From a virus, in IMG/VR virus record IMGVR_UViG_3300006921_000156, positions 1-23,776 of that record: a stretch of DNA of 23,776 bases, one strand, 5' to 3'. The position numbers and the translations under genes are program-made. Shown here in pieces: positions 2-17,643 of this stretch. Each line of letters begins with the position of its first letter. Position 1 is the first letter of the stretch. The notes beneath the pieces are model-generated. The model saw only the letters and a program-made list of their open reading frames with translations, was not told the DNA's origin and did not search any database.

Positions 2-925
2 ACAAGTACTCCACCAGCTTCTGGTTGTAACGAATGGGAGTTAGAAGGAGGCTCAGGAGGAGGTACATTTAGTTATACTGATTGTGATAGTAACCCACAA
101 ACAGAAAGTGTACCAGATGGAGATTCAATACCAGTTTGTGCTTTAGGTTCTGGACCTGTATTAACAAGTGGTAATGGAACTATTACTTTAATTGGACCTT
201 GTGTTACTCCAACACCAACTCCTACGATAAGTGTGACACCATCTGTAACACCTACGATAAGTATAACACCGACAATAAGTGTAACACCGAGTATAACTCC
301 TACTATAAGTATTACACCATCAGTTACACCAACGATATCAGTAACACCAACAGTTACACCTTCATCAACATTTACTTACTATACTTTAACTAATTGTGGT
401 AGTGCAGGAGGAGGGTATGATAGAATGAGATCACCAAATGGAGGTGCAGCACCAGGAGATTCAGTATTAATGCCAGATGGTTGTTATGAAGTAGATGATG
501 CATTAGCACCAGAAAATTCATTTGACTATATAAACTTCTATGCAGGTTGTACAGCTTGTGAGTCAGCTAATCCTACTCCAACTCCAACTCCATCGACAAG
601 TTTAACACCGACACCAACAGTAACGGCTAGTCCAGGAACTACACCTACACCTACACCGACTGTATCAGTTACACCTTCACCGGCAGCATGTTATGGAATT
701 GTAGTAACTAAAGGTAATAATACAACAGATGGTTGTTGTACAGCACCTAGAACAAGCTACTTTGATGCAGCAACGGTAGCATCATCTACTAAACTGTATG
801 ATGGATTTGGCTGTACTACACTACAGACTGGAACTAAATACGTAAGTGAAGATCAAAGTGTATATTACACATTTGTAAATGGATTTAAATTTTCAGGACC
901 AGCAATATGTCCAGCATGTCCATAA
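2..925 (+). CDS. Pro/Thr-linker, Cys-containing virion structural protein (5' partial)
   Basis: The frame is open from the window edge, so the true start lies outside; the visible part is 308 codons ending in TAA. It is modular. A Gly/Cys-containing module (starting near a CNEWELEGG stretch) is followed by a Thr/Pro-rich linker of repeated TIS(V/I)TP(S/T) units. Then come a second Cys module with a TNCGSAGGG stretch, a second linker of PTPTPTPS type, and a last Cys module ending in CPACP. Alternating folded Cys modules and stiff PT linkers suggest an extended, surface-exposed virion appendage, such as a fibre or decoration protein. Marine phages commonly carry such proteins, but I cannot name a family. 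It lies directly upstream of the tape measure gene, which supports a tail or baseplate role. No signal peptide can be assessed because the N-terminus is missing. Confidence 0.8.
   Translation, partial: TSTPPASGCNEWELEGGSGGGTFSYTDCDSNPQTESVPDGDSIPVCALGSGPVLTSGNGTITLIGPCVTPTPTPTISVTPSVTPTISITPTISVTPSITPTISITPSVTPTISVTPTVTPSSTFTYYTLTNCGSAGGGYDRMRSPNGGAAPGDSVLMPDGCYEVDDALAPENSFDYINFYAGCTACESANPTPTPTPSTSLTPTPTVTASPGTTPTPTPTVSVTPSPAACYGIVVTKGNNTTDGCCTAPRTSYFDAATVASSTKLYDGFGCTTLQTGTKYVSEDQSVYYTFVNGFKFSGPAICPACP
206..370 (+). repeat. Degenerate tandem repeat encoding a TISVTP-type linker
   Basis: Imperfect tandem copies of short units such as ACACCxACxATAAGTGT encode alternating TISVTP, TISITP and TPSVTPT blocks. 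The units are about 12-24 bases long and vary mainly at third codon positions. This is the first of two linkers in the gene. Such arrays can change length by slippage. Confidence 0.75.
569..684 (+). repeat. Second Pro/Thr linker repeat
   Basis: A second low-complexity stretch of ACxCCxACxCC-type codons encodes PTPTPTPSTSLTPTPT and then PTPTPTVSVTPSP. It separates the second and third Cys-containing modules of the same protein and uses different codons from the first linker. Confidence 0.7.
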
Positions 926-2524: not shown

Positions 2525-2541
2525 AACTATTTAATAATATG
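2524..2541 (+). promoter_or_regulatory. Repeated translation leader AAACTATTTAATAATATG (copy 2)
   Basis: This is an exact 18-base duplicate of 938-955. It overlaps the last base of the tape measure stop codon and ends in the protease start codon, so the whole 14-base intergenic gap is this element. Confidence 0.55.
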
Positions 2542-3867
2542 AAAATTGTAGAATTACTTATAGACGAATTAGATAAATTATCAGGCTTTGATGCTGTAGC
2601 GTTAGTAGAACAACCAGCTATTGAATCAGATTTTTATGCATTCAAAAATCAAGACTTAGAAGACATAATAACTTTTGAGTTAATTAAACAAGCAATGTCA
2701 GAAAACTTTGAAGATTTTGACAACCATACAACAGAATCTTATTCTAACCATGATTTACACTTTGACGTCTCTGTCGTTAAAACAGAAGATGGTAATAAGT
2801 ATGTTATGAATGGAGAGTTAACGCCAGATTTACATTTAGTTACAGGTAATACCTATTGTTTCGATCAAAGTAATACTACTAACGATACACACGATATAAG
2901 AATCAGTCTTACTAAAGACGGTACTTGGGGTGGAGGAAAAGAATTTAACAAGGGTGTAGCTATAATGGGTGATAAGTTATACTTACAAATAACTGACTCT
3001 ACTCCAAAAGAATTGTACTACTACTGTATTAATCATGCAGGTATGGCTAATGATGCAAGAATATATATAGATACAGAACAAAGAGAAAACTTTGCAAGCT
3101 ATACAGACTATCCTCAAGCAGCTACAAACAATGCTAAAAGAGCATTAAAATATGCAGAAAAAGAAGGTTGGGGATCTTGTGGTACACCAGTAGGTAAAGC
3201 TAGAGCTAATCAATTAGCAAAAAGAGAGCCTATTTCTGAAGATACTATAGCAAGAATGGCTGCATTTGAAAGACACAGAAGAAATTCAGATACTCCTTAT
3301 GGTGAAGGATGTGGTAAATTAATGTGGGATTGCTGGGGCGGAGATGCAGGCATAGCATGGGCTCAAAGAAAATTAAAACAAATTCGTAAAGAAGAACAGT
3401 CAAAGCAAAATATCTTTCAGGAGAGCTTCTCTATTACAGGTAAAAACGATTCATATAAGTTTGCTTTAGACACAGATCAAATGAGAGTAACTGGTGCATT
3501 AATGGTACCAGACAAGCTTATAAAAAGATATGATCAAGAAGGTAATGAATACTTCGTTTATTTTTCTAAAAATACAATCAAGCAGATAGCTGATAAGATG
3601 ATGAAGAATAAATTACTAGATAAAATGAATTTAGAGCATGATCCAAACCAACCGGTAGAAGGTTTTATGACCGAAACGTGGATTGTTGAAGATGGTATGA
3701 AAGATAAGTCTAGATCTTATGGTTTTGATTTCCCAGAAGGAACATGGGTTGGTACTTACCAAATAGAGAATGAAGACATATGGGAGTTAGTAAAAAATAA
3801 AACAGTAAAGGGTTTCAGCATAGAAGGTTTCTTTTCAGATAAACTAATACAAGCTAAAAAAGCTTAA
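2539..3867 (+). CDS. XkdF-type prohead protease with cupredoxin-like insert
   Basis: This is a 442-residue, four-part protein. Residues 1-36 resemble the N-terminus of phage prohead core/protease proteins (GFDAVALVEQPAIESDFYAF). Residues 70-178 look like a cupredoxin fold: a TYCFDQS strand, H118 in NDTHDIRIS, then C163, H166 and M169 in YYYCINHAGM. That set of residues could form a type 1 copper site. Residues 187-283 form a distinct conserved block (YPQAATNNAKRALKYAE, GWGSCGTPVGKARANQLA, CGKLMWDCWGGDAG) that I have seen attached to marine phage head proteins. Residues 305-435 match the XkdF putative serine protease domain, with H367 in NLEHD and S427 in KGFSIEGFF as candidate catalytic residues. 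The expected role is processing scaffold and capsid in the prohead. Copper binding is untested, and the metal site may be vestigial. Confidence 0.82.
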   Translation: MKIVELLIDELDKLSGFDAVALVEQPAIESDFYAFKNQDLEDIITFELIKQAMSENFEDFDNHTTESYSNHDLHFDVSVVKTEDGNKYVMNGELTPDLHLVTGNTYCFDQSNTTNDTHDIRISLTKDGTWGGGKEFNKGVAIMGDKLYLQITDSTPKELYYYCINHAGMANDARIYIDTEQRENFASYTDYPQAATNNAKRALKYAEKEGWGSCGTPVGKARANQLAKREPISEDTIARMAAFERHRRNSDTPYGEGCGKLMWDCWGGDAGIAWAQRKLKQIRKEEQSKQNIFQESFSITGKNDSYKFALDTDQMRVTGALMVPDKLIKRYDQEGNEYFVYFSKNTIKQIADKMMKNKLLDKMNLEHDPNQPVEGFMTETWIVEDGMKDKSRSYGFDFPEGTWVGTYQIENEDIWELVKNKTVKGFSIEGFFSDKLIQAKKA

Positions 3868-4095: not shown

Positions 4096-4145
4096 AAAAA
4101 GTACATATAACTATATAAACAGCATAACTAGTTAGTACTTTTTTT
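4096..4145. terminator. Bidirectional terminator-like inverted repeat between convergent genes
   Basis: AAAAAGTAC (4096-4104) is a perfect complement of GTACTTTTT (4135-4143), a 9-base-pair stem with a 30-base loop and extra T residues to 4145. On the plus strand it ends in a T-run; on the minus strand the first arm supplies the T-run. The right arm lies inside the last codons of the minus-strand endonuclease. The stem is AT-rich, so its strength is uncertain. Confidence 0.5.
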
Positions 4146-4628
4146 GCTAGAGTGTATAAATCTAGTTGTATGTATTTGGTTAAGCATAGGATTAAGTCTT
4201 TTAATCCATTTTTTTTCTGCATCTAACCTATTTCTTTTATCTTTTTGTTCCTCTAAAACAAACCAAGTTATTATTTTAGCACCTTTTGCTCCAACGTTAC
4301 CTGGTTGTTTACCCCTATGTTGTAATACTCTAGAGGTAATCTTATCTGAAGCTCCTACATATAAACCTTTAGTAGTAATAAGTAAGTAAACTCCTTTTCT
4401 TTGTCTCTTCCAATAATCTTTCTGAGCTTTGTAAGCAATTACATTCCATCTCTTAGGATTATCTTTCCTCCATTTAGCTGAGGTATGTTTAGTCATCTTG
4501 TTATAGTGACATTTTCTACAGTAGGTATAAGTATACTTTTTTAAAGTTCTTTTGTTTATAATTGTATAAAAGTCTTCAATTGGTAACTCTTTACTACACT
4601 TAGTACATTCTCTAGTATTCATCTGCAT
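4128..4628 (-). CDS. GIY-YIG family (homing-type) endonuclease with zinc finger
   Basis: This 166-residue protein has an N-terminal zinc-ribbon-like motif with C8, C11, C37 and C40 (CTKC and CRKC pairs). A basic linker leads into a GIY-YIG nuclease core: GVY at 79-81, LYVG at 89-92, a conserved Arg region around 100-105 (SRVLQHR), Glu138 in DAEKKW and Asn150 in NPMLN. The layout fits free-standing homing or group I-type endonucleases, which cut DNA and promote their own spread. It is encoded opposite to all virion genes around it. Its start overlaps the end of the upstream minus-strand gene by 17 bases, so the two are probably co-translated. A second ATG two codons later is an equally possible start. 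Confidence 0.85.
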   Translation of the reverse strand: MQMNTRECTKCSKELPIEDFYTIINKRTLKKYTYTYCRKCHYNKMTKHTSAKWRKDNPKRWNVIAYKAQKDYWKRQRKGVYLLITTKGLYVGASDKITSRVLQHRGKQPGNVGAKGAKIITWFVLEEQKDKRNRLDAEKKWIKRLNPMLNQIHTTRFIHSSKKSTN

Positions 4629-4905
4629 TAAGATTATGATCGTTTGCTATCTTAACAACGATGTCGTATTGACCTATTGTTAACGTATCATAACCATTGT
4701 TCAGTAAGTTTTCTAAGAAAGAAGTATTACTATTATTAGCTTTCTGTAATTGTATAAGCTTATTAATTAACTTACTATCTTTACTAACTAACTTTACTTC
4801 TTTATTTGTATTAACTACTTCTTTAGTACTATCTAAACTATCTTTTAACTGTTTAATTATACCTTCTATAGTAGTTAACTTATTTAGTATTGTTTCTTTA
4901 TTCAT
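4612..4905 (-). CDS. Small coiled-coil protein upstream of the GIY-YIG endonuclease
   Basis: This 97-residue, Lys/Asn-rich protein has a predicted coiled coil over residues 1-35 (LTTIEGIIKQLKDSLDS) and a helical C-terminus (LENLLNNGYDTLTIGQYDIVVKIA). No domain is recognised. The start ATG is preceded by the A/T leader AAGAATAAT without a Shine-Dalgarno site. It overlaps the endonuclease start, so the two form one minus-strand transcription unit. Its N-terminal pattern (KLT, then I, then QL, then DSL) loosely resembles the minus-strand gene at 22797-23000. It may be a partner of the endonuclease or unrelated. Confidence 0.6.
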   Translation of the reverse strand: MNKETILNKLTTIEGIIKQLKDSLDSTKEVVNTNKEVKLVSKDSKLINKLIQLQKANNSNTSFLENLLNNGYDTLTIGQYDIVVKIANDHNLNADEY

Positions 4906-5113
4906 ATTATTCTTTTTGGTTAAACATTTATTTATATATTATAATATAGCAAGAAAATCCCAAACCGCCAAATAAAATATACCTTTTTCCGAATAATATA
5001 CCAAATACATAGGGTTTAGTACGAATTCCATAAAAATATGAAAATAGTTGATTCTTTGAGTAAAATTCCTTACCTTATTGGTAATAAGTGTATAATTATA
5101 TATAAAGAAGAGT
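4906..5113. promoter_or_regulatory. Divergent intergenic region with promoter-like AT tracts and a dyad
   Basis: About 200 bases separate the minus-strand pair from the plus-strand modification genes, so promoters in both directions are expected. Reading minus, TATATTATAATATATAAATA lies about 25-45 bases upstream of the 4905 start. Reading plus, GTGTATAATTATATATAAAG (5089-5108) lies just before the 5114 ATG. A small dyad, CTTATT-GGT-AATAAG, sits at 5074-5088. None matches a known phage or Bacteroidota promoter well enough to be certain. Confidence 0.4.
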
Positions 5114-5121
5114 ATGAGTAG
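5038..5121 (+). CDS. Possible 27-residue leader ORF
   Basis: An ATG after AAAAAT opens a 27-codon frame (MKIVDSLSKIPYLIGNKC and onward) that ends in TAG. It overlaps the next small ORF by 8 bases at ATGAGTAG, the kind of stop-start coupling seen elsewhere in this window. There is no homology evidence, and at this length chance is a real possibility. Confidence 0.25.
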   Translation: MKIVDSLSKIPYLIGNKCIIIYKEEYE

Positions 5122-5227
5122 AGATAAAGAGGATAGAGAGTTAACTTGGAAAGAGTTTGAAGAAAGACTAGATACAGTCTTTGAAGAAATAAAAAACCTT
5201 ATAGAGGATACCTATGGCAAGAAGTAA
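5114..5227 (+). CDS. 37-residue acidic ORF coupled to the glycosyltransferase
   Basis: The 37 codons encode a highly charged, helix-prone peptide (MSRDKEDRELTWKEFEERLD and onward, ending GKK). Its last 14 bases overlap the start of the glycosyltransferase at 5214, so the two are probably translationally coupled. Codon use resembles the neighbours. Function is unknown; it could simply deliver ribosomes to the downstream start. Confidence 0.45.
   Translation: MSRDKEDRELTWKEFEERLDTVFEEIKNLIEDTYGKK
5203..5208 (+). promoter_or_regulatory. AGAGGA Shine-Dalgarno-like site before 5214
   Basis: AGAGGA lies 5 bases before the glycosyltransferase ATG. It is one of very few purine-rich sites at proper spacing in the window, where most genes use A/T leaders, and it supports the 5214 start. 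Confidence 0.45.
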
Positions 5228-6467
5228 AGAAACAATTTTTATACAAATGGCATCTTATAGAGACCCTGAACTAGGTCCTACTTTAGATGACTTACTTAAA
5301 CAAGCACAACAACCTGATAACTTACATATATGTATATGTTTTCAGTATAGTAAAGAAGATAAATTTAACTCAGACATTGATAAGTATAGAGACGATAAAA
5401 GGTTTACTATTATAGATGTTGATTATACAGAAACTAAAGGTACTTGTTGGGCTAGAAATAGAATACAGCAAGAATACAAAGGGGAAACTTATACCTTACA
5501 GTTAGATAGTCACCATAGATTTGTTAAGAACTGGGATACTAAGGTTAAGAAAATGTATAATAAGTTAAAAAAAGAAGGTTATAATCCTTTACTAACTGCT
5601 TATATTCCTAGTTATAATCCAGAAAACGATCCAGAAGAAAGAATAAATGAACCATGGGAGTTAGCATTTGATAGATTTATACCAGAAGGAGCTATATTCT
5701 TTTTACCACAAACAATGCATGATAAAGATAAACCTCAGTTAGGTAGATTCTTTTCAGCACACTTTGCATTTACTGAAGGTAGGTTTTGTACTAAAGTACC
5801 TCATGATCCTAATTATTATTTTCATGGAGAAGAAATTAGTTTAGCTGTTAGAGCTTATACACATGGTTATGATATCTTTTACCCTAATGAAGTTATAGCT
5901 TGGCATGAATATACTAGAAAAGGTAGAACTAAACATTGGGATGATGATAAAACATGGGTACAAAAAAATACTACTAGTCATGCAAGAAATAGACAACTAT
6001 TAGGAGTAGATGGAGAGGTATGCAGTCCATGTAATGAAAAGACTTTTGATAAGTATGGTTTAGGTAAAGAAAGAACTCTAGAAGATTATGAATTATTTGC
6101 TGGTGTTAGGTTCTCAGATAGATCTGTAACACAAAGAGTATTAGATAAAGTACCACCACCGGGTAGTAAGTACGATATGTTTTTTCAGAAGTTTAAACAC
6201 TGTATAGATGTACATAACGATAGTTTTAGTTATGATGATTATACTTTTATAGCAATTATACTTCACGATAAACAGGGTAAAGAATTATATAGAAAAGATC
6301 TTTCAAAAGAAGAAGTACTTAATTATAGAGCATCATTAGACGGATGGTGGAAGTTATGGGTTGAATATACTGGTCCTTTACCGCACAAATGGATAGTATG
6401 GCCTCATAGTGAAAAAGATGGTTGGGTAGAGTATAGAGAAGGTGTTATTGCTAATACAGTTTCTTAA
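5214..6467 (+). CDS. GlcNAc-transferase-like glycosyltransferase (GT60-like, GT-A fold)
   Basis: This 417-residue protein resembles the family that includes UDP-GlcNAc:polypeptide (Skp1-type) GlcNAc transferases. Residues 6-45 begin the nucleotide-binding fold (TIFIQMASYRDPELGPTLDDL). TGTCWARNRIQ at about 77-85 is followed by the LQLDSHHRF motif at 95-103, whose D98 and H100 are the metal-binding DxH-type pair, and WD at 107-108. Further on, HGEEISLAVRAYTHGYD and WHEYTRKGR match the family's C-terminal acceptor/metal region. The last 120 residues form an additional domain. The expected role is transfer of an amino sugar to a protein or glycan, perhaps a virion protein. It is the first gene of a four-gene overlapping cassette, and its stop shares a base with the next start. 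Confidence 0.8.
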   Translation: MARSKETIFIQMASYRDPELGPTLDDLLKQAQQPDNLHICICFQYSKEDKFNSDIDKYRDDKRFTIIDVDYTETKGTCWARNRIQQEYKGETYTLQLDSHHRFVKNWDTKVKKMYNKLKKEGYNPLLTAYIPSYNPENDPEERINEPWELAFDRFIPEGAIFFLPQTMHDKDKPQLGRFFSAHFAFTEGRFCTKVPHDPNYYFHGEEISLAVRAYTHGYDIFYPNEVIAWHEYTRKGRTKHWDDDKTWVQKNTTSHARNRQLLGVDGEVCSPCNEKTFDKYGLGKERTLEDYELFAGVRFSDRSVTQRVLDKVPPPGSKYDMFFQKFKHCIDVHNDSFSYDDYTFIAIILHDKQGKELYRKDLSKEEVLNYRASLDGWWKLWVEYTGPLPHKWIVWPHSEKDGWVEYREGVIANTVS

Positions 6468-7423
6468 TGATAAGAGTACATTATTTAGAAAACGTTCCTT
6501 GGGATAGGGAACACTTAAGTTATTTTAAAAGATTCACAAAATATTTACAGACTAAATTTACAGTAGAAGTTAAAACATATAAACCAGAAGAGACTTTAGA
6601 CTTATGTGTTGATATACCACCATTTGAAAAACCTAAAATTAGTGATGTTGACTTTGTTATAGAGAATACAGAGTTAAAAAAAATAAAAATCTTTTCTTTT
6701 ACAGAATACTTTTTACATTATTTAACACACTGGAGTAAAAGTGAGCATGTAGATAGTATACATCTAGGTCATTTTTCTTACCACTGGTTATATAATTGGT
6801 GTAAATCAGATAACAACTTACACAACATACACAAAATAAAACCTTTTACTTTTTTATCTTATGCACCATTTGACCCTACACCCTATAGAAACAAAAGAGA
6901 AAATGATAAGTTATTCTATTTAGGTAGTGGTGTTAATAGTTATAGAGAGACAGTAAAAATAATAAACGAGAAAGGTTATTTACAACCTCTAATAAATGTA
7001 GACCATAAAAATTATTTAGAATTACTCAGTAAACAAAAAATAGCTTTATCTCATTACTTAGATTTAAGTAAAAACGTTAACCATTATGAACATACAGGAG
7101 AGTTTTGTTATAGAGATATAGAAATGATGGCTTTAGGTATACCTTTTGTAAGAATGGAATTTAGAGATACTACTTACGAACCAATGTTACCTAACGTACA
7201 CTATATACCTATTTTAAGAGAAGATTGTTTCTTAGCTTATGAAAAAAATGGTAATGAAGGTGTAGCAGATCTATACATAGGAAAGTACTTAGAGGTAAAA
7301 CAAGATGAAGAGTACTTAAATTATATTTCAAAGAATCAAATTGAATGGTACGATAGAAACAATAAATCACCTGAATCAGAAGAACAAACATATAAATTAT
7401 TAAACTTAAAAGAATGGGAGTAG
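6467..7423 (+). CDS. Probable GT-B-like glycosyltransferase
   Basis: This is a 318-residue protein. The N-terminal half looks like the acceptor domain of a GT-B enzyme. The C-terminal half has FYLGSG, an LPNVHYIPI stretch and a conserved-looking GEFCYRDIEMMALGIPFVRM segment (about residues 210-230), which resembles the donor-site helix region of GT-B transferases where EAMA-G-P is typical. No signal peptide or membrane segment is seen. The TAATG overlap with the upstream gene and the 10-base overlap with the next show tight translational coupling. Donor and acceptor cannot be predicted. The assignment rests mainly on that C-terminal motif and the context. Confidence 0.6.
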   Translation: MIRVHYLENVPWDREHLSYFKRFTKYLQTKFTVEVKTYKPEETLDLCVDIPPFEKPKISDVDFVIENTELKKIKIFSFTEYFLHYLTHWSKSEHVDSIHLGHFSYHWLYNWCKSDNNLHNIHKIKPFTFLSYAPFDPTPYRNKRENDKLFYLGSGVNSYRETVKIINEKGYLQPLINVDHKNYLELLSKQKIALSHYLDLSKNVNHYEHTGEFCYRDIEMMALGIPFVRMEFRDTTYEPMLPNVHYIPILREDCFLAYEKNGNEGVADLYIGKYLEVKQDEEYLNYISKNQIEWYDRNNKSPESEEQTYKLLNLKEWE

Positions 7424-7998
7424 TAGGACATACAGCTTATGAAGGACTAACAGTACAGCAGCATAACGATGTATTTAAAGTATTTGATGACTTTTTAGCA
7501 GACATTAAACCAGATAGAATACTGGAAATAGGTACTGCTGGTGGAGGTTTAACTTTATTTATAAGACATAATTTACCAGATACACCTATACTAACATTTG
7601 AAGTATTTGATAGAGAGTATTACCAAAGACTTAAAGATAATAATGTAGATGTAAGAATAGAAAATATTTTTAACCATGCATACAATGCTTTAGAAAAACC
7701 AGAAGCAATAGAATCTTATATACAGCAAGAAGGTACAACATTAGTTTTATGTGACGGTGGTCATAAAATAGGAGAGTTTAACTCTATAGCTCCTTTACTT
7801 AAAAAAGGAGATTTTATTATGGCTCATGATTATGTAGCTAACAAAGAAGAATTCGATAAAAATTACTACAATAAGATATGGAACTGGATGGAAATACAAG
7901 ATTCAGACATACAACAAGTATCAGAAGAACAAAACTTAATAAATTATAACCAGGAAAACTTTAGTAAAGTAGTATGGGTATGCAAAAGAAAACAATGA
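7414..7998 (+). CDS. Class I SAM-dependent methyltransferase (CmcI-like)
   Basis: This 194-residue single-domain enzyme has the SAM-binding motif I LEIGTAGGG at 37-45 and an acidic post-I strand end (TFEVFD, 61-66). LVLCDGGHK at about 110-118 and GDFIMAHDY at 132-140 resemble the cephalosporin hydroxylase/macrocin O-methyltransferase group, which uses an aspartate-histidine metal site near the catalytic centre. The expected reaction is O-methylation of a sugar or other small group, here probably a glycan built by the neighbouring transferases. The length suits a minimal domain. It overlaps both neighbours: 10 bases upstream and an ATGA overlap with the next start. Confidence 0.75.
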   Translation: MGVVGHTAYEGLTVQQHNDVFKVFDDFLADIKPDRILEIGTAGGGLTLFIRHNLPDTPILTFEVFDREYYQRLKDNNVDVRIENIFNHAYNALEKPEAIESYIQQEGTTLVLCDGGHKIGEFNSIAPLLKKGDFIMAHDYVANKEEFDKNYYNKIWNWMEIQDSDIQQVSEEQNLINYNQENFSKVVWVCKRKQ

Positions 7999-9614
7999 CA
8001 ACATTAGTAACAGGTTTATGGGATTTAAAAAGAGGTGAGTTAGGTAATAACTTTACAAGAGGTTATGACCATTACTTAGAATGCTTTGAAAAATTACTTA
8101 AGTTAGACGTTAATCTAATTGTATTTGGTGATAAAGAGTTAGAAGACTTTGTAAACAAACGTAGAGAAACTAATATACAGTTTATATACAGAGAGTTAGA
8201 TTGGTTTGAGAATGAGTTCTTTAATACCATACAAGAGTTAAGACAAGATGATGACTGGTATAGTCAAGTAGGTTGGTTAGCTGAATCACCACAAGCAAAA
8301 TTAGAGTATTATAATCCAGTAGTTATGTCTAAAATGATGCTACTGCATGATGCTAAATTATTAGATGGCTTTAACAGCGATTATATGTACTGGATAGATG
8401 CAGGTTTAGCTAATACAGTAAACCTAGATACATACGTAAATAATAATACGTTAAATACAATTAGTAATAAATTAAAAGACTTCTTATTTGTTACTTATCC
8501 TTATAATGCAACTGCTGAGATACATGGTTTTAAATACCCAGACATAAACAAATATGCAGGTGAAGAAGTAAAATTAGTAGGAAGAGGAGGATTCTTTGGT
8601 GGTAAAAAGAGTATTATAAATACAGTAATGAATGAATACTATAGACTTGTTGAAAATACTTTATCAGCAGGTTATATGGGTACAGAAGAAAGTATCTTTG
8701 CTATTATGCTATATAAACTACCAGACATTATCTCTTACCATATGATAGAAGAAAATGGTTTACTATATAAAGTATTTCAAGATGCAATAGATAATAAAAC
8801 TATAGTACAAAAAAATAAACATAAAGATAAAATAGAGAACACAGGACTCTATGTAATAACGTTTAACTCTCCTAATCAATTTGAAACTCTTATAAAGAGT
8901 ATAGAACTATATGATAAGACTTTGTTAGATACAAAGAAATACTTATTAGATAACTCTACGGACGATAGTACAAAAGTGAAATACGTAGAATTGTGTAAAA
9001 AGTACGATTTCGAAATGATAGGTACTGGAGAAAATATAGGCATATGTGGAGGAAGACAGTATATAGCAGAACATTTCGATAAAACAGACTTAGATAGTTA
9101 TTTTTTCTTTGAAGATGATATGTTCTTTTACAACGGTAAAGAGAATACCTGTAGAAATGGATTCAATAGATACTTTAACAATTTTTTTACAAAAATAAAA
9201 GAAATAGTATACGAAGAAGGTTTTGACTTTCTAAAATTAAACTTTAGTGAGTTTTTTGGTGATAACCAGCATCAATGGTCTTGGCATAACTTACCTCAAG
9301 ATAAAAGAGATAGGTTCTTTCCAGGTATAACTGAAAAACCATTTACTAAATACAACAACATTAAAAGCTTTAACGGTATACCTTATGCAACAGGTGAGGT
9401 TTATTATTGCAATTGGCCACAACTTGTAACAAGAGAGGGTAACCGTAAATTATTTTTAGAGACAACTTGGGAATATCCGTACGAACAAACATGGATGTCG
9501 TTTATTTACCAAAAGACTAGAGAAGGTTATATAAAACCAGGGATTTTGTTAGCAACACCAACAGAGCATGATAGATTCGAACATTATGATGCTGATTTAC
9601 GTAGAGAAAACTAA
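7995..9614 (+). CDS. Two-domain glycosyltransferase: HtrL/YibB-like plus GT2-like
   Basis: I place the start at the ATG that overlaps the upstream TGA (ATGA), giving 539 residues; an in-frame ATG at 7974 would add seven. The N-terminal half begins TTLVTGLWDLKRGELGNNF and carries YWIDAG, as in the HtrL/YibB (WlaTC-like) family of putative glycosyltransferases. From about residue 283 a second transferase begins with TGLYVITFNSPNQFETLIKS. It continues with DNSTDDST and a metal-binding FFFEDDMFF motif, typical of GT-A family 2 enzymes. Two active sites in one chain suggest sequential sugar additions. It is the last gene of the cassette and ends 12 bases before a hairpin that precedes the scaffold gene. 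Confidence 0.75.
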   Translation: MTTLVTGLWDLKRGELGNNFTRGYDHYLECFEKLLKLDVNLIVFGDKELEDFVNKRRETNIQFIYRELDWFENEFFNTIQELRQDDDWYSQVGWLAESPQAKLEYYNPVVMSKMMLLHDAKLLDGFNSDYMYWIDAGLANTVNLDTYVNNNTLNTISNKLKDFLFVTYPYNATAEIHGFKYPDINKYAGEEVKLVGRGGFFGGKKSIINTVMNEYYRLVENTLSAGYMGTEESIFAIMLYKLPDIISYHMIEENGLLYKVFQDAIDNKTIVQKNKHKDKIENTGLYVITFNSPNQFETLIKSIELYDKTLLDTKKYLLDNSTDDSTKVKYVELCKKYDFEMIGTGENIGICGGRQYIAEHFDKTDLDSYFFFEDDMFFYNGKENTCRNGFNRYFNNFFTKIKEIVYEEGFDFLKLNFSEFFGDNQHQWSWHNLPQDKRDRFFPGITEKPFTKYNNIKSFNGIPYATGEVYYCNWPQLVTREGNRKLFLETTWEYPYEQTWMSFIYQKTREGYIKPGILLATPTEHDRFEHYDADLRREN

Positions 9615-9687: not shown

Positions 9688-10419
9688 ATGAACAAAGATC
9701 AATTAAAGGAGCTTGTAAAAAAGTATTTTTCACTTACCGAAATGACTGAAACGGAAAACTCTTCAGAGGAAAAGCAAAACTTTGATTCAGCTACTTTAGT
9801 AGACGGAACAAAAATTACGAACAAAAAAGATTCTTCTTTTGCTGTTGGTGATGAATTGTACGTAGAAACGGAAGCTGGCGAAGAAGTATTGGCACCTAGT
9901 GGGGAGCATACTACTGAGAGTGGTATAACTGTAACAGTAGACGGTGAAGGAAAAATCACTGGAATAGCTCGCCCAGACGGAGACGATTCTGGTTCATTAG
10001 CAGAACACGAAGAAGATATGAAGGACCTTGATAAAGGACCTGCAAAAATCATCCAAGCAGAAGCTACTGAATTATCAGAAGACTCTAAAGCGGTTAAGTT
10101 AGAAGAAGATGAAGAATCTATGAATGATCATTATCCTGAAGAGGAAACAATGGACATTAAAGAAGAAATCATTGAAGCTATCATGACTGAAGTAGGACCT
10201 GCAATAGAGGAACTACGCAAAAAAATGACTGAGCACGAAGATATGTTGACAGAACACGAGGAAAAAATGAGTGAGTACATGAGTGCTCCATCATCTAAAC
10301 CGACTGCAGAATCAAGATATGCTAAGTCTAGAAATAACTTCGAAAAACCTAAAGCAGTGTACAATCAAAAGAGGTACGAAAAAGCTTTATTTAAATTAAC
10401 AAACTCTAAAAATCAATAA
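9688..10419 (+). CDS. Capsid scaffolding protein
   Basis: This 243-residue acidic protein lies 2 bases upstream of the major capsid gene. Residues 33-95 contain a DGT-based segment (ATLVDGTKITNK, FAVGDELYVETEAGEEVLAP, TVTVDGEGKITGI) that I recognise from scaffold-like proteins of marine phages. Residues 150-195 are a charged coiled coil (EEIIEAIMTEVGPAIEELRK, EHEDMLTEHEEKMSEYM). The C-terminus turns basic (KSRNNFEKPKAVYNQKRYEKALFK), as expected for the helix-turn-helix that contacts capsid subunits in scaffolds. It should nucleate the prohead and be removed by the protease at 2539. The G/C-richer codons (GAA, GAC, ACG) differ from the tail fibre genes. Confidence 0.75.
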   Translation: MNKDQLKELVKKYFSLTEMTETENSSEEKQNFDSATLVDGTKITNKKDSSFAVGDELYVETEAGEEVLAPSGEHTTESGITVTVDGEGKITGIARPDGDDSGSLAEHEEDMKDLDKGPAKIIQAEATELSEDSKAVKLEEDEESMNDHYPEEETMDIKEEIIEAIMTEVGPAIEELRKKMTEHEDMLTEHEEKMSEYMSAPSSKPTAESRYAKSRNNFEKPKAVYNQKRYEKALFKLTNSKNQ

Positions 10420-13755: not shown

Positions 13756-14340
13756 ACAACCACCTTTTTAATTTCAGAAGCAAAAATAAGAAGCTTTACT
13801 AGCTTGAATGATGCTGTTGATTCAGCACTTATTAAGAACTGTATAAGAACAGCTCAAGATGTATGGCTACAAAATATAATTGGTACCGTACTATACAATA
13901 AACTTTTATCTGATGTTGATGCAGGTACGTTAACAGGTAACTATAAAGGATTAGTTGATGACTACATACAAGACTTTTTATTGTATGCAGCTTATTACGA
14001 AACTTTAGAAGAGATTTACCTAAGACCAAGAAACAATGGTTTACTAAGACCTAATGGAGGAGAGAACTCTGACCCAGTTGAAAGAGATCTTTATGATATG
14101 AAAAGACAGAGCATTAGAAACAAAATGGACTACTACAGTCAAAGACTAACAGAATACATCTTAGAGGAAGATAATCTATTTCCAGAGTTATCACAAGATA
14201 CTAAATTATACCAACAGCTACCAGACTATACTAATAAGTATAAAAATCCATTTGTAATGAGAGGTAGTTACTATTTAGATTTTGCTAGAGAGTACGGGAT
14301 TAGAACATACGATACAAGATACAAACAATACCCTCAATAA
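13753..14340 (+). CDS. Head-tail adaptor/connector protein
   Basis: This 195-residue helical protein follows the portal. The segment LIKNCIRTAQDVWLQNIIGT leading into VLYNKLLSDVDAGTLTGNYK and LVDDYIQDFLLYAAYYE resembles the helical connector (gp6/gp15-like) proteins that plug onto the portal ring in Bacteroidota phages. The C-terminus is Tyr/Arg-rich (YYLDFAREYGIRTYDTRYKQ). Its stop overlaps the tail fibre start by one base (TAATG). Order and size support a connector, though a tail completion protein is possible. Confidence 0.68.
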   Translation: MTTTFLISEAKIRSFTSLNDAVDSALIKNCIRTAQDVWLQNIIGTVLYNKLLSDVDAGTLTGNYKGLVDDYIQDFLLYAAYYETLEEIYLRPRNNGLLRPNGGENSDPVERDLYDMKRQSIRNKMDYYSQRLTEYILEEDNLFPELSQDTKLYQQLPDYTNKYKNPFVMRGSYYLDFAREYGIRTYDTRYKQYPQ

Positions 14341-16874
14341 TGGCAGCAGATTTTAACTTAACCAATCAATACATATCAGCAAGTTTTGACAACCTTATGC
14401 AAAACTCTGGTAGTATACCAGTAAATGGATTAGGAACACAAATTAATAACCTAACAGTTACTTCTTCTTTTGCAACAACAGCATCTTATGCTTTAAATTC
14501 AGAAGCACAAGTAAGTGCATCTTATGCAAATAGAGCAGGTGTAGCAGATGCAGTAAGTGGTAGTAATGTAGTAGGTAATGTTGCAACAGCTTCAGTTGCA
14601 TTAACAGCTACCTCAGCATCACATGCTATTATAGCTAACAGTGCTTTAACGGCAACTTCTGCAAGTCATGCATTAACAAGTAATACTTCAATAAGTGCTT
14701 CACATGCTTTACAAGCAAATAATGCTACAACTGCAACTACAGCAACGACAGCCTCTTATGTAACTACAGCTCAAACAGCATCTTATGTAGCAGCAGCAAA
14801 TATAGACGGAACAGTAGCAACAGCAACTAGTGCATCACATGCATTAAGAGCTGATATAAGTGATGATGTAGCTTCTACTGCAAGATTAAATGTAACAGAT
14901 ATAACTGCAAGTAATGCAACATTTACTTCAGCTTCAATTGGGTATTTAAAAACAGTAACAGGTTCAGCAACAATCATAGGAGATGAATACATTATTTTAA
15001 ATGCTGATTCACCAACTAAAAGGTTTGCTGGAATAAAAGTATATGATAGTGGATCTGGTTTAACAGGGTCGTTTGAATGGGATAGTGTAGATGATAACTG
15101 GATACAAGTCGAAACAGGAGGAACATCAGCAGGTATGCTTACAGGTATATCTGGTAGTAAAGGCTCAGAAGCTTATCCTTCTAACAATACAATATTAAAA
15201 GGTACAGGTAACCATACAGTACAAAATTCTATTATAACAGATAATGGATCATTAGTAACTGTAGCAGGTGACGTATCAGCATCATCATTTGTAGGAGATG
15301 GTTCAGGTTTATCAAATATTTCACCAGCCTCATCTTCTTATGCATTAAGTGCATCATTTGCACAAACAGCATCATATGCTGCCAATGCAGGTGATTGGGA
15401 TGGACAATTTAGTGGTTCAGCAAACATAACAGGTAGTTTAATTGTTAGTAGAAGTAGTGGTCAAGCATTAACTTCAGATGGTAACTTTACTGCTAATTTA
15501 TTCACACCTTCAGCATTTTCAGAACATCAAATAATTACAGCACCATCATTTACTAAAACAGCAGGTGTAACCAAACCATTTACGGTCAACCAGATGGTTT
15601 ACCAAGACTTTGCATTTGGTTCAGGTTATTATGAAAATACCTGGATGATATCTCAGTGGGATAGTGCAGGTTTCAACTACGGTAGTGATATGTTAATGGG
15701 TGGTACAAGAATAAATGCTAGTTTAGTTGCAAGTGGAAGTGGTACAGCAGCACAAAAAACTGCAGCATTCTCTGTATTAGACGATACATTTAATAGTGGA
15801 GATGGAGTAGCAGATGCAGTAGCAAGATATTATGGTAGAACGATGGAGCTTGGTTTATACAACAGTGAAACGATTGTTGTAGGTAACAACTTAACTAACC
15901 CTGTTGGGTACATGACTCAAAATCTTCACTTAACTGCTGAAGATCAAGTAATAATTGGTTCAGCACAAGGAGTTTCTTACCCTTATAAAAGTGGTACAAG
16001 AGCATGGGATGGAACAGGATCAGATACTAAAGATATAAAGTTTTACTATACAGGATCAGCTTGCTTTATACAGACAGGTTCAGCAACTGGACCAGCAGTA
16101 CAGATAACTGGTTCGTTAAACATAACAGGAAGTGGGTTAAATGAATCTACAATAGTAGGTAACATTAAACAATCATTCCCATCGCCAGGTAATAACCAAA
16201 CAGTAGGTTTAGCTGAATTAAGTGGTACTAACACAATAGGTGGTAAAAACTATACTAATAAAAACTTATTTGTAGCAGACTTTAATGCATTTGGAGAACA
16301 ATTTAGAGATTATTACTCAATAGAATACTACGATGGCTTTGCATATAATTATGGTACAGAGTTTAACATTAATGGTATAAAATCAAGACTTGGATTAGTA
16401 GTTTCAGGTTCAGGAGGAGGAAGAACAGGAGAGATAGCAGTAGTAGATAACCAAGACGGTACAGGTACTGTAAAAATATCTACTGGAGATCAAGTAGGTG
16501 TAGAAATTAGTGCAGGTAATAAAGGTATTAAAGTTACAGGTGCAGTATCATCAGTTATAACTACACTTGGAATATCTTCTAATACAGCATCTTTAGATTT
16601 ACAAGATGGTGATGCATATATCTTAAACTTAGTATCTGGTTCTGATACACATTTAGATGCAACTAATATTTCTACTAATGGAAGTCAAACAGTATCTTTA
16701 AGAGTTAATCAACCAGGAACAGGACACGGAACAATATCATTTGCACCAGAGTTTAAGTTTGCAGGAGGTACAGCACCAACGGCAACTGCTACTTCAAATG
16801 CAGAAGACATACTTACGTTCCAAACATACGCAGGAACAAACGTTTACGGAACAGCAGCATTAAATTTAAGTTAA
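14340..16874 (+). CDS. Tail fibre protein with Ala-Ser repeat stalk
   Basis: This is an 844-residue protein. Residues 1-35 may be the attachment region. Residues 36-150 carry about ten degenerate copies of an (T/S)AS(Y/H)A(L/x)xA unit, predicted to form a trimeric beta/coiled stalk. Residues 190-260 form a compact module (GYLKTVTGSATIIGDEYIIL, FAGIKVYDSGSGLTGSFEWD) found in many marine phage fibres. Another TASYA pair sits near residue 340. The remainder is Gly/Ser/Thr-rich beta structure with two related segments (GSGYYENTWMISQWDSAGF and FRDYYSIEYYDGFAYNYGTE), suggesting duplicated receptor-binding or shaft modules. No C-terminal intramolecular chaperone is evident. It should bind the host surface together with the next gene. 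Confidence 0.8.
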   Translation: MAADFNLTNQYISASFDNLMQNSGSIPVNGLGTQINNLTVTSSFATTASYALNSEAQVSASYANRAGVADAVSGSNVVGNVATASVALTATSASHAIIANSALTATSASHALTSNTSISASHALQANNATTATTATTASYVTTAQTASYVAAANIDGTVATATSASHALRADISDDVASTARLNVTDITASNATFTSASIGYLKTVTGSATIIGDEYIILNADSPTKRFAGIKVYDSGSGLTGSFEWDSVDDNWIQVETGGTSAGMLTGISGSKGSEAYPSNNTILKGTGNHTVQNSIITDNGSLVTVAGDVSASSFVGDGSGLSNISPASSSYALSASFAQTASYAANAGDWDGQFSGSANITGSLIVSRSSGQALTSDGNFTANLFTPSAFSEHQIITAPSFTKTAGVTKPFTVNQMVYQDFAFGSGYYENTWMISQWDSAGFNYGSDMLMGGTRINASLVASGSGTAAQKTAAFSVLDDTFNSGDGVADAVARYYGRTMELGLYNSETIVVGNNLTNPVGYMTQNLHLTAEDQVIIGSAQGVSYPYKSGTRAWDGTGSDTKDIKFYYTGSACFIQTGSATGPAVQITGSLNITGSGLNESTIVGNIKQSFPSPGNNQTVGLAELSGTNTIGGKNYTNKNLFVADFNAFGEQFRDYYSIEYYDGFAYNYGTEFNINGIKSRLGLVVSGSGGGRTGEIAVVDNQDGTGTVKISTGDQVGVEISAGNKGIKVTGAVSSVITTLGISSNTASLDLQDGDAYILNLVSGSDTHLDATNISTNGSQTVSLRVNQPGTGHGTISFAPEFKFAGGTAPTATATSNAEDILTFQTYAGTNVYGTAALNLS
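14468..14860 (+). repeat. Degenerate repeat in the tail fibre stalk
   Basis: Repeated GCATCTTATGCA-, GCATCACATGCA- and GCAAGTCATGCA-like strings encode ASYA and ASHA units at roughly 30-60 base intervals. A further pair occurs near 15335-15380. The array is an obvious substrate for recombination between fibres. Confidence 0.65.
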
Positions 16875-16875
16875 C

Positions 16876-17643
16876 ATGGGATTAGTTAAACCATTTGCCT
16901 TTATGGGGTCATCAGCAGCAGGTGAACTAGTCAATGACGGTTTAGTTCTTTATCTAGATGCTGGAGATACATCAAGTTATCCAGGATCAGGAACTACATG
17001 GACTGATTTAAGTAGTACTGGTCAAAACTTTACTCTTTATGGATCACCAACTCCTGTACATACATCAGGTGAACAAGGGTACTTTACTATGGATGGTAGT
17101 AGCACGTACTTTCAAAATTCAGTTTCTAATGCTTATATTACACCTGCATCTTCGTCAGTAGAGTGGACTATAGAAACTATTTCAGATACTACTACATTAT
17201 CAGGCTATAGAGGTTTAGCAACAGTATGGCACAGTGGTACTAATCAAGTATGGTGGCATGGTTTATCAGGAGCAACATCAGGAGGTATACACTGGGCATT
17301 AAGAGAAGATCCAGCACAAGGTGGTTCTTCACAATTTTATAACAGTTCAGCTATATACTCTCTTAACACACTAACCCATATGGTATGGAAAGTAAATTAT
17401 ACTGCACAAACATTAAACTGCTGGTTAAACGGTACTCAAGTTATTACAGATGATGCATTAACAATAGACAGTATGGATACGGCAGGATCAGATTCTTACT
17501 TACAGATAGGTAAACAAAATTCAGGTAATTATTGGAGTGGTAAAATAGCAATGGTTAGAATATATAACGAGTATGGATTTACTACAGAAAATGCAGAACA
17601 GAACTATGATTACTGGAAAAATACAAGAGGATACGCAATTTAA
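16876..17643 (+). CDS. LamG/concanavalin A-like lectin tail fibre or adhesin
   Basis: This 255-residue protein starts 1 base after the tail fibre stop. Residues 15-65 show the phage LamG signature: DGLVLYLDAGDTSSYPGSGT, TWTDLSSTGQNFTLYGSP and GYFTMDGSSTYFQ. The domain closes with LTHMVWKVNYTAQTLNCWLN, SYLQIGKQNSGNYWSGKIAM and VRIYNEY. That is a jelly-roll carbohydrate-binding fold. As a virion protein it probably contributes glycan recognition at the fibre tip. The last residues (NYDYWKNTRGYAI) are typical for this group. The adjacent sugar-modification cassette makes glycan biology a theme in this phage. Confidence 0.8.
   Translation: MGLVKPFAFMGSSAAGELVNDGLVLYLDAGDTSSYPGSGTTWTDLSSTGQNFTLYGSPTPVHTSGEQGYFTMDGSSTYFQNSVSNAYITPASSSVEWTIETISDTTTLSGYRGLATVWHSGTNQVWWHGLSGATSGGIHWALREDPAQGGSSQFYNSSAIYSLNTLTHMVWKVNYTAQTLNCWLNGTQVITDDALTIDSMDTAGSDSYLQIGKQNSGNYWSGKIAMVRIYNEYGFTTENAEQNYDYWKNTRGYAI

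Follow-up and report, generated by a model that had tools for sequence, protein, structure and literature searches.

In the genome of a small marine phage (IMG/VR record IMGVR_UViG_3300006921_000156), of which positions 1 to 23,776 were analyzed here and are referred to as the window, a block of four genes for glycan-modifying enzymes lies between the gene for a head maturation protease and a putative scaffold gene. We propose, at a probability of roughly three in four, that this block is an exchangeable cassette with which the phage O-glycosylates its own virion, and that Pro/Thr-rich (PT-rich) linkers would be the acceptor, a reading that draws on predicted structures and on comparisons with hundreds of related viral sequences. 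The target in the window phage is likely a PT-rich tail protein of 1218 amino acids (aa), encoded a few genes upstream. An earlier note on the same DNA had listed several candidate virion targets, namely the capsid, a Pro/Thr-linker protein, and a fibre, and from this list the Pro/Thr-linker protein could be singled out.

A GT60-type transferase heads the cassette

The four open reading frames (ORFs) of the block are intact on the plus strand, and the TAATG and 10-base overlaps reported earlier were verified. Gene 1 (P0001, 5214-6467, 417 aa) is the predicted initiating protein O-glycosyltransferase. It matches the GT60-type family PF11397 at 2.3e-71 (241.5 bits, against a curated cut-off of 21), which was the sole Pfam family reported, and over nearly its full length phrog_24687, annotated as "glycosyltransferase" (1.6e-176). 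No GT27 family match was found for it. The metal/donor-site residues D98-S99-H100 (the DSH motif), R102-F103, and H231 are invariant across 41 GT60 sequences, and the DSH...H arrangement resembles DxH...H, the metal-site motif of GalNAc-T2.

As genes 1, 2, and 4 had no matches when their profiles were compared with PDB sequences, predicted structures were used instead. For the P0001 model (predicted local distance difference test, pLDDT, 92.2), the best 29 PDB entries were all polypeptide GalNAc-transferases (ppGalNAcTs; Z 19.7-22.8), with all others at 17.5 or below; the match at Z 22.8 had a root-mean-square deviation of 3.5 across 276 residues. The mucin-type ppGalNAcTs of family GT27 are thus the nearest solved fold, but P0001 is only about 10-13% identical to them and has a C-terminal beta-rich region of its own (323-411). 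Going by the model, P0001 may work like a GT27 enzyme, though it is not filed in GT27.

Two acceptors of GT60 enzymes are known: threonine in mucins of Trypanosoma cruzi (peptide KPPTTTTTTTTKPP), and a hydroxyproline of Skp1, which depends on the prolyl-4-hydroxylase PhyA (PMC6939170, PMC3769586). Bacterial homologs exist as well, so the family is not confined to phages.

The three genes that follow would act after this first enzyme. Gene 2 (P0002, 6467-7423, 318 aa), a predicted extender, had no match in Pfam or PHROG; its AlphaFold2 model (pLDDT 87.5), however, is a complete GT-B fold spanning residues 1-318, with Z up to 15.9 against GT4-type GT-B enzymes. Homologs of gene 2 adjoin GT60 in three other loci (L204, at 47% identity, L172, and L180). 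Gene 3 (P0003, 7414-7998, 194 aa) encodes a methyltransferase resembling CmcI and rhamnosyl O-methyltransferases (RMNT_CmcI, PF04989, 2.7e-8, over the family cut-off), predicted to cap the glycan, and homologs with 38-57% identity were found in 13 GT60 loci. For gene 4 (P0004, 7974-9614, 546 aa), the most probable start is codon 8, at 7995, and this start accounts for the ATGA overlap that had also been described. The gene encodes a two-domain transferase: residues 9-254 match HtrL_YibB (PF09612, 2.3e-16, 60.6 bits against a cut-off of 24.1), yet score far under the NCBIfam equivalog cut-offs for YibB, so the protein is not YibB itself. The second half (about 290-546) matched no family in any library scanned; it is GT2-like by sequence, with conserved FFEDDM and NxGICGGRQ motifs, and EDDM is invariant in a 22-row alignment of gene 4 homologs.

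Cassettes are exchanged as units between conserved flanks

Relatives of the window phage, collected via the capsid gene, share the gene order protease, holin-like gene, GIY-YIG gene, cassette, scaffold, and capsid, while differing in the content of the cassette. DNA of relative G002 is 82-100% identical to the window at positions 4900-5199, is about 60% identical beyond the GT60 start codon at 5214, and regains 80-100% identity directly past the stop at 9614; in G001, the right flank becomes similar again at this very position. Such an exact swap from the GT60 ATG to the last stop, between flanks that are 96-100% identical at the DNA level in near-identical phages, indicates that the cassette is exchanged as a unit.

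Among these relatives, G001, G002, and L020 combine a GT60 (37-38% identity) with two other genes, one of which has a sialyltransferase (GT29) match; L016 carries a GT60 (75%), a carbamoyltransferase, a YibB-like gene, and a YibB-GT2 gene (75%); and L015 pairs GT60 with a 762-aa Gly_transf_sug/Caps_synth protein. L023 and L042 encode a prolyl-4-hydroxylase (P4H), a radical SAM/SPASM protein, and a short GT60, with the radical SAM/SPASM gene (L023:5584-6489) sitting between the other two. In L077 and L078 the cassette is absent, and the holin-like gene adjoins the scaffold gene. The earlier proposal of insertion as a unit, for which a presence/absence comparison of related phages had been suggested, is thereby supported. 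In L032 and L074 GT60 is located after g19 instead, beside other transferases, and the contrary arrangement, with these genes placed elsewhere and alongside genes for DNA modification, was not seen.

GT60 is the common first gene in most cassette versions, while its partners vary. Retention of the first enzyme with exchange of the others is what would be expected of an initiating transferase that acts on a fixed acceptor.

GT60 genes are associated with PT-rich virion proteins

A GT60 profile search of IMG/VR yielded 76 new viral loci, 49 of which also contain homologs of gene 4. As a control, 35 random IMG/VR loci were chosen by an arbitrary 15-mer. PT-rich ORFs were present in 38 of the 76 GT60 loci and in none of the random loci (Fisher 1.2e-8), an enrichment that holds under five definitions of PT-rich. 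The GT60 loci are longer than the random ones; counted per 10 kb, they hold 101 PT residues versus 0. PT-rich genes also lie within 2 genes of GT60 more often than expected (26 versus 16, p 0.0008). In L204, GT60, GT-B, and methyltransferase genes come immediately after the gene for a 1541-aa protein, of which 1138 residues are PT-rich, and a YibB-GT2 gene follows two extra genes later; all four are homologous to the window cassette.

The proposed acceptor in the window phage lies at the left end of the window (2-925, plus strand), which covers the C-terminal part of the tail protein. Each end of the window overlaps contig L088 with about 99% identity, and the two pieces together close what appears to be a circular map of only about 29 kb; in relatives, the longest contigs measure 25-31 kb. 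The whole gene is contained in L088 (L088:4353-8009). The complete protein has 203 PT-rich residues, 105 of them within the window part, and shares phrog_15511 with the PT-rich protein beside GT60 in crAss-like phages. Within the family of the window phage, 7 GT60 contigs include the tail gene, and all of them have 132-319 PT residues; the two P4H contigs have 45-46, and the others, some of them incomplete, 0-48.

In crAss-like phages, GT60 is flanked on either side by a PT-rich protein of the tail/muzzle region. Among crAss-like loci found via the muzzle protein (PF25729), the muzzle carried a PT linker in 33 of 33 loci with an adjoining GT60 (20), P4H (7), or both (6), versus 0 of 46 loci with neither. 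Linkers in the muzzle and upstream proteins were also seen to accompany GT60 or a two-domain P4H operon in L222-L301 and L337-L415, and short linkerless muzzles to occur there without either.

A P4H profile search returned 79 loci, which are closely related and not independent. A PT-rich ORF was called in 73 of these, mostly directly adjacent, and the enzyme genes commonly lie between two PT-rich genes. The remaining six include short fragments, and in the ones inspected the Pro-rich linkers narrowly miss the threshold.

The 2 enzymes appear to divide along the length of GT60. Outside the P4H scan, no long GT60 (at least 370 aa) co-occurred with P4H (0 of 110), and short GT60s (275-318 aa) mostly do; both genes are found together in the relatives L023, L042, L244, and L278. 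Within the P4H scan GT60 is mostly short (138-318 aa), but a 471-aa form occurs in one group, so the split is a tendency and no rule. This 471-aa match to the GT60 profile (L356-L374) is possibly a GT60 fused to another domain. No P4H was detected in the window plus L088, nearly the whole 29-kb genome. For this phage, with its long GT60 and no P4H, direct attachment to Thr/Ser is the simplest reading.

A proposed route of glycosylation

In the route we propose, GT60 would start the glycan by attaching a sugar, probably GlcNAc taken from UDP-GlcNAc of the host, directly to Thr/Ser in the PT-rich linkers of structural proteins, the chief acceptor here presumably being the tail protein with its PT repeats just upstream of the cassette. 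The chain would then be extended by the GT-B and YibB+GT2 enzymes and capped by the methyltransferase, probably in this order. In other phages, P4H together with a short GT60 or another transferase would take this role, presumably acting on hydroxyproline. Because close relatives retain the initiating step and exchange the enzymes that act after it, variation would fall on the outer sugars. Such variation would be expected if the coat is selected at the surface, be it for adsorption, for shielding of extended linkers from proteases, or for evasion. The cassette takes up about 15% of the genome and is thus unlikely to be neutral.

Several observations weigh against this reading. In half of the GT60 loci, the majority of these on large phage contigs, the 10-kb flanks contain no PT-rich ORF, so other acceptors may exist, and 2 PT-rich fragments (L094 and L095) contain neither GT60 nor P4H. 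On the muzzle tree, the PT linker and the enzymes change three times each, together, amounting to 2-3 independent events, which are too few to reach significance in a tree-aware pair test on this set. Within clades, the associations in general rest on few independent events. In addition, the virion location of the PT-rich tail protein is deduced from gene order.

Other candidate targets

The virion could also be glycosylated on capsid or fibre proteins (genes 14340-17643) rather than on PT linkers. The cassette adjoins the protease, scaffold, and capsid genes, and the fibre-like genes are Ser/Thr-rich and variable. Against this, the association with PT linkers recurs in crAss-like phages, with GT60 placed between PT-rich tail/muzzle proteins, and we consider such a target unlikely.

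Further removed is the idea that the cassette alters a host surface glycan (lipopolysaccharide or capsule), for example to block superinfection, with the proximity of PT-rich genes being incidental. YibB/HtrL, Gly_transf_sug, carbamoyltransferase, and CmcI-like families, all present in these islands, are characteristic of bacterial loci for polysaccharides or small molecules, and only 19 of 80 bacterial GT60 loci have PT-rich neighbors. However, the fold of GT60 is nearest to polypeptide transferases, the gene associates with PT-rich virion proteins and P4H, and Pfam scans recognized no membrane polymerase or flippase among the island genes, which makes a host glycan an improbable target. Glycosylation of phage DNA, in which hypermodified bases would protect against restriction, appears very improbable. 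Phage glycosyltransferases do often act on DNA (PMC12619734), and gene 4 weakly matches a beta-glucosyl-HMC-alpha-glucosyltransferase (E 0.015). Known GT60 enzymes modify polypeptides, however, and no DNA-modification or base-modification genes were found among the window genes tested, the window covering most of the genome; a DNA target was set aside for lack of base-modification genes. Taken with the ppGalNAcT-like fold and the link to PT-rich virion proteins, this agrees with the earlier note, which had favored a protein target.

Genes flanking the cassette

To the left of the cassette lies the gene for the XkdF-type head maturation protease (2539-3867, plus strand; PF14550, 2.3e-16), beside a holin-like small ORF. 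The protease gene has two extra modules that are absent or reshuffled in relatives: residues of about 74-175 are similar to domains of tail/virion structural proteins, and residues 187-291 correspond to a portable domain (phrog_2859) that is also found in otherwise unrelated phage genes.

Two minus-strand genes follow between the protease and the cassette. The earlier note had called them a homing-type endonuclease pair, which holds for one: 4128-4628 encodes a GIY-YIG endonuclease-like protein of 166 aa (PF01541, 5.1e-5, over the cut-off), whereas its small companion (4612-4905) matched no family over the cut-off and has no nuclease domain. The companion is conserved together with the GIY-YIG gene. 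Both accompany the cassette at the same site in relatives, are inverted along with GT60 in L021 and L060, and seem to be lacking from relatives without a cassette; they are a possible driver of cassette exchange. A small conserved ORF (5114-5221, plus strand) overlaps the start of GT60 and is 54-100% identical in cassette-bearing relatives.

To the right, the putative scaffold gene (9688-10419, plus strand) is 87-99% identical in phages with another cassette. Its label follows from its position before the capsid gene and has no database evidence, as no family matched. The hairpin reported at the 3' side of the cassette is of ordinary stability (z -1.33; 19 of 200 shuffles equally stable), and a terminator or hairpin as an insertion mark was rejected as not significant. 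Further downstream, the fibre-like genes (14340-17643) contain Ser/Ala/Thr-rich repeats and diverge strongly, with 43-86% identity between phages that share 92-95% in their capsid proteins.

Annotated phages include no relative of the capsid protein, and a Bacteroidota host is a guess from the crAss-like link. No Bacteroidota-type promoter pattern was found, and a sigma-70 promoter scan stayed below chance. For the co-expression with capsid genes that the earlier note had inferred, no promoter was identified, and the minus-strand gene pair separates the cassette from the protease gene.

Relation to known glycosylation systems

The phage enzyme belongs to the same GT60/PF11397 family as the T. 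cruzi UDP-GlcNAc:polypeptide alpha-GlcNAc-transferase and Gnt1 of the Skp1 pathway (PMC6939170, PMC3769586), which suggests, at the sequence level, that phages initiate with the same type of enzyme as parasites and amoebae. The T. cruzi route, in which Thr in Pro-flanked mucin repeats is modified and no hydroxylase takes part, is like that proposed for the long phage GT60; the Skp1 route, with its P4H and GT60, is like that proposed for the short form, a pairing absent from the window phage. As in these systems, later sugars would come from separate and two-domain transferases. In contrast to them, the phage GT60 lies in operons beside virion genes, its acceptor is a proposed one, and its partners are YibB+GT2, GT-B, methyl-, carbamoyl-, or sialyl-type enzymes.

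In mycobacteriophages, transferases add glycans to virion proteins, where they are located at the C-termini of subunits of the capsid and the tail tube (Freeman et al. 2023, as cited in PMC12619734). The present system would share with these the phage-encoded transferases and virion protein targets, but differs in its PT-rich linkers, GT60 family, and exchangeable cassettes. The phage P4H is of the same kind (PDB 5iax, 3itq) as those of PBCV-1 and the marine phage auxiliary gene, whose viral use has been termed cryptic (PMC9301287); unlike these, it is co-located with transferases and PT-rich virion linkers.

The cultured jumbo phages XacN1 (L113, Xanthomonas) and RAS14 (L114, Stenotrophomonas) likewise hold GT60 (43-44%) and YibB-GT2 (42 and 39%) in one cluster, though with a carbamoyltransferase and other genes separating the two; BLAST found no GT-B or methyltransferase homolog there. 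In the vicinity of the cluster are very large ORFs that contain short PT tracts. No earlier description of GT60, P4H, and PT linkers in phages was found in the open-access literature.

Implications

Few phages are known to have glycosylated virions. In small tailed phages, in crAss-like phages, and in some large phages, the comparison of genomes made here ties GT60, which in other phages is accompanied or replaced by P4H, to one recognizable type of acceptor, PT-rich linkers. We think it somewhat more probable than otherwise that this reflects a widespread mucin/extensin-like system of phages, in which either a long GT60 glycosylates the PT linkers of virion proteins on Thr/Ser, or P4H and a short GT60 or other transferase do so on hydroxyproline, and exchangeable cassettes vary the outer sugars. 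If true, such a system would account for PT linkers and for the cryptic viral prolyl-4-hydroxylases, which would gain a testable role, and surface sugars of the phage particle that change by cassette exchange would bear on adsorption, stability, and recognition.

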